In this document: in pieces, positions 26,716 to 33,136 of the stretch
How the letters are laid out: the number at the start of each line of letters is the position of its first letter
How positions within the stretch are numbered: the first letter of the stretch is position 1
Origin: Klebsiella pneumoniae
GTDB lineage: Bacteria > Pseudomonadota > Gammaproteobacteria > Eutrophobiales > Eutrophobiaceae
Assembly (NCBI GenBank): GCA_945870865.1
Contig: CAMBTO010000019.1
Location: 1-34,057, forward strand
Direction: 5' to 3'
Length of the DNA: 34,057 nt
Made by a program: the position numbers and the translations under genes
The notes under the pieces: generated by a model
What the model saw: only the letters and a program-made list of their open reading frames with translations
Databases searched by the model: none
What the model was told of the DNA's origin: nothing

Positions 26716-27651
26716 CTATCTGGTCCCGGCAGCTTTCTTCTCTTCGGCCAACTGTTTGGTAAACCGTCCGTAGTACAGATCGATATAGGCCTGACAACTT
26801 TTCGGATCGATAAACGGATTCGCGGCGTTACTGTCCTGTTTCCTTCTGGCCACCTTGCCATCCAGATCAATGGAGAGTGCACGATAGGTCATGAATACAT
26901 CACACGGCAGTGACCGCAGTCGCTTGAAGGAATTTTCAAAGTCTGCCAGGATTTCCGGATACATCTCGTTATTGAGCAAGGTACCTTCGTCCTCATCGGT
27001 CGGTGTCCCCATGCCGCCCATGAACACGACATTATACTGCTTGCCCTTGTCCGTCACTTTCATCGTCCAGGTAGTCACGCCCTTCGCATGACCCGGCGTC
27101 AGGTGTGCAGCCATGGTTACACCTCCAAGCTTTAACTCTTCCTTATCACCGATATACCCGTCCACCTTGACCGGTTCAAACCCTTCGGAACGGGTTTCCT
27201 TGCTATCAGCGACGGCCAGGATTGCGGCGGTGTCTTTCGAGGTGATGATCTTCGCATGCGGCAGCAGGCGTTTCATCGTCGCCAGCCCACTGATATGTTC
27301 ACCGTGGGCATGGGTGTTGATGATGTACTTTATATCACGCAGGTGAAAGCCGGCCTTGACGATATTCTCGACCACATCATGCACCTCTTCTGCCGAGGTC
27401 GTATCCATCAGGATGTGACCTTCCGGCGTCGTGATCAGGAACGAACCCACCCTGGTGTGGCCAACCCACCAGATATTGTCGATCAGATGGTCCGGGTCGC
27501 GTGGTTCATTATTATTGTCCGGAGAGCCGACCCCGATACCGAGTTCGGTGGATACCTGCGCCGGGACATTAATGGTAAGTAAAGTAAACAGCAGCAGTGC
27601 CTGGAATAATGGTGTGGTGCTGAATAATGAACGGACTGTGCTCAGGCCCAT
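26716..27651 (-). CDS. B3-like metallo-beta-lactamase-fold protein with altered zinc site
   Basis: 311 residues from ATG 27651, preceded by GGGGGGAG; an in-frame TTG at 27666 is less likely. Signal peptide (FQALLLFTLLTINVPAQ). The sequence matches the metallo-hydrolase at 21679 along its whole length (TPEGHILMDT, LTPGHAKGVTTWTMKV, KGKQYNVVF, NPFIDPKSCQAYID). Zinc-1 residues H114, H116 and H188 are present, but the aspartate of HxHxDH is Glu118 (HAHGEH) and the position of the last zinc-2 histidine is Arg257 (MTYRALS in place of ASHGYWF). It may bind one zinc, act by a changed mechanism, or serve as a non-catalytic binding protein. Confidence 0.85.
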   Translation of the reverse strand: MGLSTVRSLFSTTPLFQALLLFTLLTINVPAQVSTELGIGVGSPDNNNEPRDPDHLIDNIWWVGHTRVGSFLITTPEGHILMDTTSAEEVHDVVENIVKAGFHLRDIKYIINTHAHGEHISGLATMKRLLPHAKIITSKDTAAILAVADSKETRSEGFEPVKVDGYIGDKEELKLGGVTMAAHLTPGHAKGVTTWTMKVTDKGKQYNVVFMGGMGTPTDEDEGTLLNNEMYPEILADFENSFKRLRSLPCDVFMTYRALSIDLDGKVARRKQDSNAANPFIDPKSCQAYIDLYYGRFTKQLAEEKKAAGTR

Positions 27652-27780
27652 GATGACTCCCCCCAAAAGAATTCATACAATTGATATACCTGGTATGTGT
27701 CGCATCACGCTATAAAGTGTGCGGTGACAATATAATCCAAACAGGCATGGCAAACAATGACACCAGCGGATACAGCCTCC

Positions 27781-28125
27781 CTATTGCCCTGTCACTTCGT
27801 CGGTCCAGACCTTGAAGCTTTTCAAGGTAGACGGTCCAAATGAGTTGCTGATTGATACATCCGCCGCATCACGACCGCGGGCGATGAGGATACGGCCGAT
27901 AAACGGCTTGTTATTACGTGGATCAAAAGGCAAATCCTGTGCCGGGTGTTGTTGCGCCTTCCTGTCGACCGCATCCGGCTGGCCGTTATCGTTGAAAATC
28001 GCATTAGCCGTCAGCACGATCTCCCCTTTCGGCGCCACGATGCGGCTGCACCAGTTACCAAAGGTATCACAATAGGCGGTGACCGGGATTGTCGCAGCAG
28101 TGGCCCTGTGACGTTCGTGCGGCAA
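27781..28125 (-). pseudogene. transglutaminase-like gene with deleted core
   Basis: The frame encodes 114 residues. Its first half, YCDTFGNWCSRIVAPKGEIV followed by PDAVDRKAQQHPAQDLP, matches the N-terminal beta domain of bacterial transglutaminase-like proteins. Directly after the DLP motif it jumps to FDPRNNKPFIGRILIARGRD and TLKSFKVWTDEV, the C-terminal end of the same family. The roughly 120-150 residues between them, with the catalytic Cys (GVCRDF) and His, are missing while the reading frame is kept. The true N-terminus is also lost, no ribosome site is present, and the first codon is TTG. An internal in-frame deletion left a non-catalytic relic. Confidence 0.75.
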
Positions 28126-28228: not shown

Positions 28229-29017
28229 ATGAAAACCCGGTATTTCCTCGCTTGCTGTGTTCTGCTGATAACCGGCATGACATCGCTACATGCCCAGCAG
28301 AACCAGCCGACGATTGAACAGCTGCTGAAGGAACCATTTCTGGATGACTACTATTCCAACGTCGTTTATGGCTACGAGATAATCACCGATACGCAGAGCC
28401 ACGCCAGCCGCTATGTGGGCAATAGCCTGAAATGCAGCAACTGCCATCTGCAGGCCGGCACACAGAAGGACGCCTTGCCGCTGAATGTCGCCGGCATGTA
28501 TCCGAAGTGGCGGGCCAAGAACGGCCAGCGCAACGGTATTGGACTGCGCATCCGCGAGTGTTTCCTCTACAGTATGGATGGGATCATGCCGCCGGAAGAT
28601 GCGCCGGAGGTGCTCGCCGTTGCGGCCTATGTGAGTTACCTGTCGCAAGGGCAGGTCATGGGGTTAGAGCCTGAAGGTCGCAGTGTGCCTACGCTGGAGG
28701 ATACCGGTTACGATCCCAATCCAGCCAACGGCCGTGCGGTTTACCAGCAACACTGTGCCAGATGTCACGGTCCGCAGGGTGAAGGGATGGCGGGTATTCC
28801 GGCGGTATGGGGTTTGGACTCCTACAACAAGGGCGCCGGCATGAGTCGTATCGATCTGGCCGCCGGTTTTATCTGGGCAAATATGCCGCTCGGGAGCGAT
28901 AGAACACTGAGCCACCAGCAGGCCTGGGACGTCGCTGCCTATCTGAATCTGCAAATCCGTCCCACTGACCCGCGGGGCAGCAAGTTCCTCAAACTGCTTG
29001 AACACCTGATCGATTGA
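28229..29017 (+). CDS. tsdA: TsdA-like dihaem thiosulfate dehydrogenase
   Basis: 262 residues with signal peptide (FLACCVLLITGMTSLHAQ). Two haem motifs: C69-S-N-C-H73 (GNSLKCSNCHLQAG) and C176-A-R-C-H180 (CARCHGPQGEG). The layout RYVGNSLKCSNCHLQAGTQK, GMYPKWRAKNGQ, IRECFLYSMDG, VWGLDSYNKGAGMSRI and WANMPLG is that of TsdA, which joins two thiosulfates into tetrathionate in the periplasm (EC 1.8.2.2). C111 (IRECF) corresponds to the conserved cysteine that acts as haem ligand in TsdA, and M219 (ANMP) to the methionine near haem 2. The start codon has a poor ribosome site. The next gene, a SulP permease, starts inside this stop codon. Confidence 0.88.
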   Translation: MKTRYFLACCVLLITGMTSLHAQQNQPTIEQLLKEPFLDDYYSNVVYGYEIITDTQSHASRYVGNSLKCSNCHLQAGTQKDALPLNVAGMYPKWRAKNGQRNGIGLRIRECFLYSMDGIMPPEDAPEVLAVAAYVSYLSQGQVMGLEPEGRSVPTLEDTGYDPNPANGRAVYQQHCARCHGPQGEGMAGIPAVWGLDSYNKGAGMSRIDLAAGFIWANMPLGSDRTLSHQQAWDVAAYLNLQIRPTDPRGSKFLKLLEHLID

Positions 29018-30594
29018 TCACAAGGCTGCTCAAGGAAGCAACACCATCATTAGCCTGGATGCATAACCCGGGCAACTGGCGTACCGAGCTATTTGCCGGT
29101 TTTGTTGGTGCCATACTGGTCATCCCGCAAGGCATCACCTATGCCTATCTGGCCGGACTGCAACCCGAGTATGGTTTGTACTGCGCTATCTTTGTCACGC
29201 TGTTTGCGAGCCTGCTCGGCAGCTCGTCGATGATCAGCGGACCGAACACAGCAGTGGCCATCCTCATAGGCATAGCGGTGTTACCGTTGGCCGGACGCGG
29301 CAGTCCGGTGTATATCGATTTCGTGTTTCTGCTTTGCATGATGGTCGGTGTAGTCCAGCTCTTGTTCTGGTTGTTACGCGGGGCGCGCATCTTTCAATAC
29401 CTGTCCCCGGCAGCCATCTCGGGCATTTCCGCAGGCGCTGGCTTTCTGATTATCCTGACCTCACTGGACAGTGTGCTGGGCCTGTCGACCTTCAACACCA
29501 CATTCTTTTATGAAAAGCTCTACATCATCCTCAGTGATGCCAAAGACCTGGTAAACCCCTATAGCCTTGCGATTGGGCTGATGACAATTGCAGGCGGCTA
29601 TAGCGGACGCCGTTACTCTCCACGCTATTTCATCATCATTGCAATTATTACCGGTTACCTCTGCGGCCTGCTGGTCGCCTTTGTCTGGCCGCAACCTGTC
29701 AGCGAACTGGAATATCTCGGGCGCATGCCGTTGCAGTGGTTGCCGTTTCATGTGCCAACCGTCAACATTGAATACCTGATGAGTAGTATCGCTTTGATAC
29801 CATATGCGATCATCATCGCGTTCATCAGTCTCGCCCAGTCACTGGTGATCGTCCGTGAGTTGAAGATGGAGACAGACCAGCACATCGACCTCGACAAGGA
29901 AGTCTACGCCCAGGGTATCGCCAATTTTCTGGCACCGTTTTTTTCTGCCTTTGTCGGCTCCGGCAGTTTTAATCGTACCCGGGCAAACCAGGGCCTCGGC
30001 GCCACCACACCGTTGTCCGGCATTGCGTCGGCCGGGTTTGTCCTGCTGCTGATTACCTTTCTCGGACCGATACTGACGTATATGCCGATGGCGGCAATGG
30101 CGGGAACCTTGTTCATACTCGGCGCCGACATGATTAAGTGGCGCGATATTACTCACTACGCCCAGGTCCGCTCTGAACTGCTGATTTATCTTGCCACGTT
30201 TATCAGCATCATCTTTTTTGGTCTGACTGCCGGCGTCATCCTGGCGGTATTCCTGTCCGTCAGTGTATTCATGCTGCGCATCAGCCAGCTCGAACTGAAG
30301 CTGGAAACCACAGATGCGGGTCTGCAACTTGAGGTAAAGGGCGCGTTGTTTTTTGCCTCGGTGGCCCATCTGACAGAGAGCTTTCATGCTCACCCCGGGG
30401 GAAACCTGACGCTGGATCTACAGTACACCACCCATATCGATCAATCCGCCGTCGATTTCTTCATACGTGAGGCCAGTAACATGGCCACTCACAGTGCCAG
30501 GCTGACACTGCTGGTAAATGATAAACAACGTGATTTCCTTAGAAAACTGGGCATCACCAGTAATATTAATCTCATTTCGGTTGGTACGGGTTAG
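29014..30594 (+). CDS. SulP family inorganic anion transporter with STAS domain
   Basis: 526 residues from TTG in TTGA, overlapping the TsdA stop by four bases, so translation is coupled. About 10-12 membrane helices follow: GFVGAILVIPQGITYAYLAG (the SulP signature), FVTLFASLLGSSSMISGPNT, AISGISAGAGFLIIL, and later LAPFFSAFVGSGSFNRTRAN. The C-terminus (about 430-526) is a STAS domain with a beta-alpha pattern (LQLEVKGALFFASVAHLTES, LTLDLQYTTHIDQSAVDFF). SulP proteins carry sulfate, bicarbonate or other anions. Coupling to TsdA suggests export or exchange of a sulfur oxyanion; this substrate is an inference. Confidence 0.92.
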   Translation: MITRLLKEATPSLAWMHNPGNWRTELFAGFVGAILVIPQGITYAYLAGLQPEYGLYCAIFVTLFASLLGSSSMISGPNTAVAILIGIAVLPLAGRGSPVYIDFVFLLCMMVGVVQLLFWLLRGARIFQYLSPAAISGISAGAGFLIILTSLDSVLGLSTFNTTFFYEKLYIILSDAKDLVNPYSLAIGLMTIAGGYSGRRYSPRYFIIIAIITGYLCGLLVAFVWPQPVSELEYLGRMPLQWLPFHVPTVNIEYLMSSIALIPYAIIIAFISLAQSLVIVRELKMETDQHIDLDKEVYAQGIANFLAPFFSAFVGSGSFNRTRANQGLGATTPLSGIASAGFVLLLITFLGPILTYMPMAAMAGTLFILGADMIKWRDITHYAQVRSELLIYLATFISIIFFGLTAGVILAVFLSVSVFMLRISQLELKLETTDAGLQLEVKGALFFASVAHLTESFHAHPGGNLTLDLQYTTHIDQSAVDFFIREASNMATHSARLTLLVNDKQRDFLRKLGITSNINLISVGTG

Positions 30595-30670
30595 GCATAT
30601 AATCTTCGGCAATAAACTGTTTTAAATGTATTTCAAACAGCATTAAGACAATTCAAACAGGAGCGGGAAT

Positions 30671-31336
30671 ATGAGTGACAAAGATATCAAGACCGTCGGG
30701 CGCCGTAACTTGCTGACAAATCTGGGTGTGACGGCTGTCGCCGGACTCGCAGGCGCCGCCGTTGCCACACCGGCCCAGGCGGCACAGTCCGCCGGGTTTG
30801 AACCGGCACGCCATGGCCACGATGCCTGGCTGGGTGAGTTACCGGGTAGTCATCGTGTCTTCATAGACTCGTCCACGCTGGAAGGCGGCGCCAATGCCTT
30901 GCGGTTTGCCAGTAACATCATCAAGTCCCACATTGAAGAATATGAGGGCAAGGCATCTGACTATGCACTGGTCGTCTGTTTCCGCCATGGTTCTGCGTCG
31001 TATGGTTTTGGTGATGCGCTGTGGGCGAAGTACAGTTCCATCCTCGGCCGTGATATGGACCAGGCACCGAAAAGTAACCCTATGAACACCGCCAGCGCCG
31101 CCAATGGCCAGAACAGTATTGCCGCGATGGTGAAAGACGGCATCCAATTCGCCATCTGCAAGCGATCCAGCCGCAGGATAGCCGCCGGTATCGCAGAAGC
31201 AACCGGTGTTACCCCGGATGAAGCCTTCGCTGAACTCGTTGGTGGGGCAATACCAAACGCGCATTTTGTCGCTGCGGGTGTTATGGCGGCAACCCGGGCG
31301 CAGGAATATAGCTACAGTCTCTTATACTCGGAATAA
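30671..31336 (+). CDS. Tat-exported DsrE-like protein
   Basis: 221 residues. Twin-arginine signal (G-R11-R12-N-L-L followed by GVTAVAGLAGAAVATPAQA) suggests export in folded form. The mature domain follows the DsrE/DsrF-like pattern: RVFIDSSTLEGGANALRFAS, YALVVCFRHGSASYGFGDAL (C103), GIQFAICKRSS (C163, place of the conserved DsrE cysteine) and VVP-like IPNAHFVAAGVMAATRAQE. DsrE-type proteins bind or carry sulfur on a cysteine. Alone this could be any DsrE-fold protein; beside TsdA and SulP a sulfur-linked periplasmic role is plausible. AGGAGCGGG precedes the ATG. Confidence 0.75.
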   Translation: MSDKDIKTVGRRNLLTNLGVTAVAGLAGAAVATPAQAAQSAGFEPARHGHDAWLGELPGSHRVFIDSSTLEGGANALRFASNIIKSHIEEYEGKASDYALVVCFRHGSASYGFGDALWAKYSSILGRDMDQAPKSNPMNTASAANGQNSIAAMVKDGIQFAICKRSSRRIAAGIAEATGVTPDEAFAELVGGAIPNAHFVAAGVMAATRAQEYSYSLLYSE

Positions 31337-31348
31337 TCCAGTAGTCTA

Positions 31349-31400
31349 AAAGGGGTCGGAGACAAAGGAGAATTATTCTCTTTTTTTCTCCGACCCCTTT
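31349..31400. repeat. 52-base palindromic element, possible terminator
   Basis: AAAGGGGTCGGAG (31349-31361) and CTCCGACCCCTTT (31388-31400) are perfect 13-base inverted arms. The interior contains a second small hairpin (AAAGGAGAA and TTCTCTTTT). It follows the DsrE-like gene by 12 bases, so it may end that transcript, but the GGGGTCGGAGAC word recurs in weaker form at 33084-33136, marking a small repeat family. Confidence 0.75.
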
Positions 31401-33082: not shown

Positions 33083-33083
33083 A

Positions 33084-33136
33084 AAGAGGTCTGAGACAAA
33101 ACAGGATTTTTCCAATCTGATTCCGACCGCTTTTTT
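33084..33136. repeat. degenerate copy of the GGGGTCGGAG palindromic element
   Basis: AAAGAGGTCTGAGACAAAA at the left and ATTCCGACCGCTTTTTT at the right are imperfect inverted arms of the same design as the element at 31349-31400, located two bases after the flavoprotein stop. The T-run on the right could also give intrinsic termination. Confidence 0.55.

Follow-up and report, generated by a model that had tools for sequence, protein, structure and literature searches.

A conserved TsdA–SulP gene pair with an exported DsrE-fold partner: a candidate thiosulfate-oxidising module

Introduction

Three consecutive genes on contig CAMBTO010000019.1 of assembly GCA_945870865.1 (positions 1 to 34,057, the whole stretch analysed here and called the window) raise the question of whether a dihaem cytochrome of the TsdA type, a SulP-family permease and an exported protein with DsrE-like features act together on sulfur oxyanions. 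To our knowledge, the passage of thiosulfate and tetrathionate across the inner membrane and the fate of tetrathionate in bacteria without the Sox pathway are poorly known. A sequence-only reading of the window had proposed a compact thiosulfate-oxidising and anion-handling system outside the Sox pathway, in which the cytochrome gene is translationally coupled to the SulP gene through a TTGA overlap and is followed, 76 bases on, by the gene of a DsrE-like protein with a twin-arginine translocation (Tat) signal. It had also set two conditions beforehand: the three genes should be neighbours in relatives, and a structure search should reveal a DsrE fold in the DsrE-like protein. We found that the trio is a real conserved unit, the core of which is the TsdA–SulP pair with a third partner varying by lineage.

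Results

The open reading frames of the window are exactly those proposed. All three lie on one strand, the TTG start of the SulP gene falls within the final codons of the cytochrome gene, giving a 4-base overlap, and the gap between the SulP stop and the start of the third gene is 76 bases (Table 1). The same trio, in the same order and on the same strand, was present in all four congeners of the host, the cytochrome being cut by a contig end in one of them (G276). When genome contigs were searched for TsdA, 41 loci were recovered; SulP stood directly downstream of the cytochrome in 40, and the contig ended inside the cytochrome in the other. Of the 41, all 24 Pseudohongiella-type loci whose contigs extend far enough carry the third gene (three of them on the same contigs as the congeners), and in these 24 the genes of the pair overlapped by TTGA in 21 cases and by GTGA in three (L050, L051 and L055), with TTGA in the congeners as well. 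The three genes are thus neighbours in relatives, and their arrangement is not a matter of chance. The record of strain LSUCC0112 (L036) also carries the trio. Two records labelled Klebsiella pneumoniae (L031 and L050) carry a Pseudohongiella-type locus, and their names look like those of mislabelled metagenome bins.

The association of TsdA with SulP extended well beyond this set. Among 29 other TsdA loci drawn from the class Gammaproteobacteria, 12, belonging to nine families, directly precede a SulP gene of the same subfamily. Because a genome has only a few SulP genes, such adjacency would be expected by chance in well under one locus. A further candidate pair, L127 from the same genome as L084, was excluded from the count; its SulP belongs to another clade and has Glu at the coupling position considered below. 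In the reverse test on 274 genomes, the 13 best matches to the SulP profile were exactly the TsdA neighbours (at least 585 bits, against 503 for the next match), six of which were in the search profile (the window and five others) and seven were not. None of the next 17 SulPs had TsdA alongside. Furthermore, TsdA and SulP distances were correlated across 48 pairs (r 0.967, with at most 0.378 after shuffling), as expected for co-inheritance. The pair was also found in Thiodiazotropha and Magnetococcales loci, there without a third protein of the window type.

By sequence, the window cytochrome is a TsdA. It matched the TsdA crystal structures 4wqc, 4wq7 and 5lo9 with E-values of about 1e-39 to 1e-41 (phmmer) and the Pfam SoxA/TsdA model PF21342 with 32.9 bits (cut-off 27). 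On alignment to 4wqc, the active-site residues Cys123, Arg119, Ser127 and Arg109 of the Allochromatium vinosum enzyme correspond to C111, R107, S115 and K97. The protein also retains both CxxCH motifs (residues 69-73 and 176-180) and the distal Met219. The serine is invariant in TsdA and absent from SoxA and hence separates the two, and the Arg109 position is Lys in some TsdA, as it is here (PMC4423706). Because the active-site residues are completely conserved, TsdA catalysis with oxidation of thiosulfate is strongly indicated for this protein. The two haems, the Cys ligand, the active-site Arg and Ser and the distal Met are thus shared with A. vinosum TsdA (4wqc, 4wq7 and 4v2k), whereas the window cytochrome differs from it in having Asn218 where a Lys adjoins the distal Met in that enzyme, in the overlap of its gene with a SulP gene and in the lack of an adjoining TsdB. 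The catalytic subunit of TsdBA from Marichromatium purpuratum (5lo9) and of the Halomonas tsdBA product is also homologous to the window cytochrome, but its partner in those systems is a cytochrome that accepts electrons and not, as here, a permease, and the described Halomonas tsdBA neighbourhood is without SulP or DsrE (PMC9237845).

The permease matched PF00916 (Sulfate_transp) with an E-value of 5e-68 and 230 bits (cut-off 23), and its C-terminal STAS region matched PF01740 with an E-value of 6e-4 and 20 bits against a cut-off of 22.6. NCBIfam matches to sulfate permease (TIGR00815, 217 bits, cut-off 380.45), DauA and BicA were all far under cut-off. In the tree, the SulPs that follow TsdA formed a single clade (support 100/100) with L127 apart. 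The plant transporter AtSULTR4;1, like the SLC26/SulP transporters in general, belongs to the same family, and its substrate-site residues Arg393 and Gln112 are retained in the window SulP as Arg321 and Gln39. In contrast, the position of its proton-coupling Glu347 is occupied by Gln in this TsdA-tied clade: Gln was found in 50 of the 52 TsdA-adjacent SulPs with data, while all 15 unlinked ones have Glu or Asp. The two exceptions are L129, with Leu, and L127, whose unrelated SulP has Glu. The class-wide set gave 12 Gln and 1 Leu among the 13 TsdA neighbours, and Glu in 16 of the 17 next-best SulPs. The sole Gln among these 17 belongs to a SulP-rhodanese of L151, without TsdA, that lies beside a dihydrolipoamide acyltransferase-like gene. 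A second candidate signature of the subfamily, Asn in the SFNR motif, was dropped, being common to unlinked SulPs too. In AtSULTR4;1, Glu347 is required for proton-driven transport, and the E347Q variant retains ~40% of transport with little response to a pH gradient, while mammalian relatives without the acidic residue are mostly exchangers or channels (PMC8298490). The window SulP is therefore likely, from the replacement of the coupling glutamate by glutamine, to be a proton-uncoupled exchanger or uniporter.

The nature of the third protein was approached through its predicted structure. None of five members of its family matched Pfam, PF02635 included, at E-values up to 10. An AlphaFold2 model from 26 sequences had a mean pLDDT (predicted local distance difference test) of 83.6, with values >90 over most of the mature domain; an earlier model from 5 sequences (pLDDT 44) had been set aside as too poor. 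VIA-align of the model gave Z 13.8 to ST0148 (2pd2), 13.1 to MTH1491 (1l1s), 9.5 to DsrE of DsrEFH, 9.4 and 9.3 to two more DsrE-type proteins and 13.8 to the designed derivative 8uja, the next row standing at 5.1. As modelled, the protein has a DsrE fold, yet it is not a PF02635 member by sequence; the proposed DsrE likeness was thus borne out in fold and failed as a family match. Its closest solved folds, ST0148 and MTH1491, are 13-20% identical to it, small and without an N-terminal Tat segment. The predicted Tat-type signal was upheld by an RR motif, invariant in 26 homologues, with a following hydrophobic stretch, and the Tat-target model TIGR02811 matched residues 1-40 below cut-off.

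Cys163 of this protein is invariant in the 26 homologues, is kept in three distant relatives that are 21-28% identical, and coincides in alignment with the cysteine of a DsrE protein of the Magnetococcales locus L065 that Pfam recognises as PF02635; C103 is not retained in the distant relatives. The protein shares its DsrE type and conserved cysteines with DsrE3A of Metallosphaera cuprina, which belongs to an Hdr-like cluster that also includes TusA, whereas the window protein carries a Tat signal, stands beside TsdA and is unmatched by PF02635. DsrE3A forms a Cys-S-thiosulfonate with tetrathionate and is unreactive with thiosulfate, sulfite and polysulfide (PMC4175335). By analogy, Cys163 may bind a thiosulfonate or sulfane group. 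A search of genome contigs with the third protein alone gave no matches, profile searches found it within its family in the host genus only, and a profile search of 398 genomes of the phylum gave nothing convincing elsewhere. Sequence searches of the PDB returned chance matches only, mostly antibodies, and those of PHROGs weak chance matches only. The mean identity of the third protein is 61%, against 82-83% for its two neighbours.

Other sulfur-related partners were found beside the pair in other lineages. In L065, the pair is directly preceded by genes for a PF02635 DsrE whose N-terminus is signal-like and for a cyclic nucleotide monophosphate (cNMP)-binding rhodanese; in L121, L130 and L132 a DsrE of the same Pfam family, likewise signal-like at its N-terminus, comes after SulP. 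The SulPs of L122 and L124 carry fused STAS, cNMP-binding and rhodanese domains, and several other SulPs are of equal length. The fused rhodanese of L123 and L124 is without the active cysteine (IVYSRNERR). In both, SulP is followed by a cNMP-rhodanese encoded on its own (6437-7531 in L123 and 10351-11445 in L124) and intact in L123 (IVYCRSGRR), which suggests that it may functionally replace the cysteine-less fused one. SoxY is encoded further along in L124. Upstream of the TsdA-SulP-DsrE run, L130 (5220-5693 and 9497-11386) and L132 encode a dihaem cytochrome and a membrane protein resembling YeeE, and downstream of it both have a SoxB-like metallophosphoesterase that is under the SoxB cut-off.

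Distant relatives of the third protein were found in Methylocella, Paraburkholderia and Kozakia. That of Methylocella has in its vicinity genes resembling the regulator BigR and sulfide:quinone reductase (each under its cut-off), that of Paraburkholderia (L163) is near a dihaem cytochrome and TsdA pair (TsdBA) and a PF02635 DsrE, and that of Kozakia (L164) is near a DoxD-DoxA fusion. The Paraburkholderia TsdA is 44% identical to the window cytochrome. TsdA and DoxDA both make tetrathionate from thiosulfate.

In the host genome (G000; 2.17 Mb, 97 contigs, rated 100% complete) and the four congeners, SoxB gave no match over cut-off and neither SoxY nor DsrA was found, and the pathway in the host would therefore end at tetrathionate unless another, unsearched route exists. 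Sox genes are present in the Thiodiazotropha genome and in the Magnetococcales genomes tested. The placement of the system outside the Sox pathway thus holds for the host genus and does not extend to the wider module.

The promoter scan returned no sigma-70-like site, and terminator-like sites at chance level only. Directly 3' of the trio, at 31349-31400, AAAGGGGTCGGAGA makes up a strong inverted repeat whose fold has -36.3 kcal/mol (z -6.9); a diverged second copy of it stands at 33083-33133 after a flavin adenine dinucleotide (FAD) monooxygenase. The repeat looks like a dispersed palindromic element and may also be a transcription terminator. On the other side, a metallo-beta-lactamase-fold protein is encoded at 26716-27666 (-), with 242 bits to NCBIfam subclass B3, barely over the cut-off of 240. 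Its metal motif is HAHGEH, with Glu at a position where class B3 enzymes usually have Asp. A short open reading frame at 27781-28125 (-), the two halves of which match L031 ~370 bases apart, looks, from this alignment, like a gene with an internal deletion relative to that nearest relative.

Table 1. Features of the trio in the window
Feature	Position	Strand	Basis
TsdA-type dihaem cytochrome c, thiosulfate dehydrogenase candidate, 262 aa (amino acids)	28229..29017	+	phmmer vs TsdA structures; PF21342
Haem 1 motif C69-S-N-C-H73 of cytochrome	28433..28447	+	sequence; kept in aligned copies
Cytochrome Cys111, predicted catalytic Cys ligand of haem 1	28559..28561	+	alignment to 4wqc; roles from PMC4423706
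Haem 2 motif C176-A-R-C-H180 of cytochrome	28754..28768	+	sequence and alignment
Cytochrome Met219, predicted distal ligand	28883-28885	+	sequence and alignment
TTGA overlap of cytochrome stop (TGA) and SulP start (TTG)	29014..29017	+	sequence; recurs in relatives
SulP-family permease, TsdA-linked subfamily, 526 aa, weak C-terminal STAS	29014..30594	+	PF00916; tree and profile
SulP Gln275, position of proton-coupling Glu347 of AtSULTR4;1	29836..29838	+	alignment; roles from PMC8298490
Tat-type exported DsrE-fold protein, 221 aa, putative periplasmic sulfur/thiosulfonate carrier	30671..31336	+	AlphaFold2; VIA
Twin-arginine motif (VGRRNLL) of third protein	30701..30706	+	sequence; RR invariant in 26 homologues
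Cys163, DsrE-type cysteine of third protein	31157..31159	+	invariant in 26 homologues and distant relatives

Discussion

We consider it reasonably probable that the trio is a thiosulfate-oxidising module made up of TsdA, a proton-uncoupled SulP for sulfur oxyanions and a periplasmic cysteine carrier. In such a module, the periplasmic cytochrome would join two thiosulfates into tetrathionate via a Cys-S-thiosulfonate on the haem-ligating Cys111, and the two electrons would pass to the respiratory chain. The SulP, acting as an exchanger or uniporter without proton coupling, would move thiosulfate or another divalent sulfur oxyanion across the inner membrane. Thiosulfate is favoured as its anion because rhodanese recurs on or beside the permease, and rhodaneses use or make thiosulfate. 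Cys163 of the exported DsrE-fold protein would take the thiosulfonate or sulfane group of tetrathionate and either hold it or give back thiosulfate, and in other lineages the third place would be taken by a different exported DsrE, or by a rhodanese fused to the permease or beside it.

Several points weigh against this proposal. Its support so far comes from sequence and structure models, the direction of a TsdA is not readable from sequence, and some TsdA enzymes reduce tetrathionate. No TsdB-like electron-acceptor gene adjoins the trio in the window, and the third gene is not essential to the pair, since the pair is not flanked by it in Thiodiazotropha or in two of the three Magnetococcales loci. 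The Gln substitution amounts to one evolutionary event, because it marks one SulP clade. Nor can the SulP substrate be read from the sequence, as anion selectivity in the SulP/SLC26 family follows no clear residue pattern (PMC8298490). The module might instead run in reverse or both ways, the cytochrome reducing environmental tetrathionate to thiosulfate as an electron sink or for detoxification and the SulP importing thiosulfate for assimilation or exchanging it. TsdA-type enzymes can be bidirectional, Asn218 in place of the A. vinosum Lys may shift the potential of haem 2, and tetrathionate would otherwise be a dead end, barring another route, in a host where no SoxB, SoxY or DsrA was found. 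The Cys-S-thiosulfonate on TsdA, moreover, arises from either substrate (PMC4423706). However, the rhodanese and DsrE partners, and the position of third-protein relatives beside DoxDA and sulfide-oxidation-type genes, point to oxidative sulfur handling, and we regard a reversed or bidirectional module as unlikely.

The roles of the two partners of the cytochrome can also be questioned separately. The cytochrome might make tetrathionate while the anion brought in by the SulP is an unrelated or general one such as sulfate or bicarbonate, the two being co-transcribed for convenience only. The family carries sulfate, bicarbonate and dicarboxylates, and the low NCBIfam scores of the window SulP also count for such a role; the near one-to-one tie of the subfamily to TsdA in nine further gammaproteobacterial families, Thiodiazotropha and Magnetococcales, however, and the cNMP-rhodanese region fused to some members, make it even less probable than a reversed module. 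We give a similarly low probability to the DsrE-fold protein being a lineage-specific passenger, that is, a structural or regulatory partner or a protein of another pathway, and not a sulfur carrier. Its failure to match Pfam, its faster evolution and its absence from beside the pair in other lineages would fit a passenger, whereas the invariance of Cys163 even in the most distant relatives, the occurrence of a DsrE of another sequence family in the same neighbourhood elsewhere and the proximity of relatives to TsdBA and DoxDA speak for a carrier. A more far-reaching form of the thiosulfate-oxidising proposal, which we put forward only tentatively and would sooner doubt than accept, is that the SulP subfamily is a dedicated, proton-uncoupled exchanger of thiosulfate or tetrathionate across the inner membrane that links periplasmic tetrathionate formation to cysteine carriers (exported DsrE or permease-tethered rhodanese), a membrane step not recognised previously.

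The component families are known. In the open-licence literature, which leaves subscription journals mostly uncovered, we found no account of the TsdA–SulP pairing, of the Gln subfamily or of the exported DsrE partner, and these are undescribed in the literature searched; the trio, in the sequence-only reading, was likewise not known to be described as a unit. The almost one-to-one match of a SulP subfamily with TsdA, its change of coupling residue, which can be read from the sequence, and the repeated presence of a cysteine carrier make the membrane passage of thiosulfate and tetrathionate and the fate of tetrathionate testable, and the trio-bearing strain LSUCC0112 appears to be a cultured isolate. 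If the thiosulfate-oxidising module is true, the pair and its partner would provide a marker for a Sox-independent thiosulfate pathway in environmental sulfur surveys.

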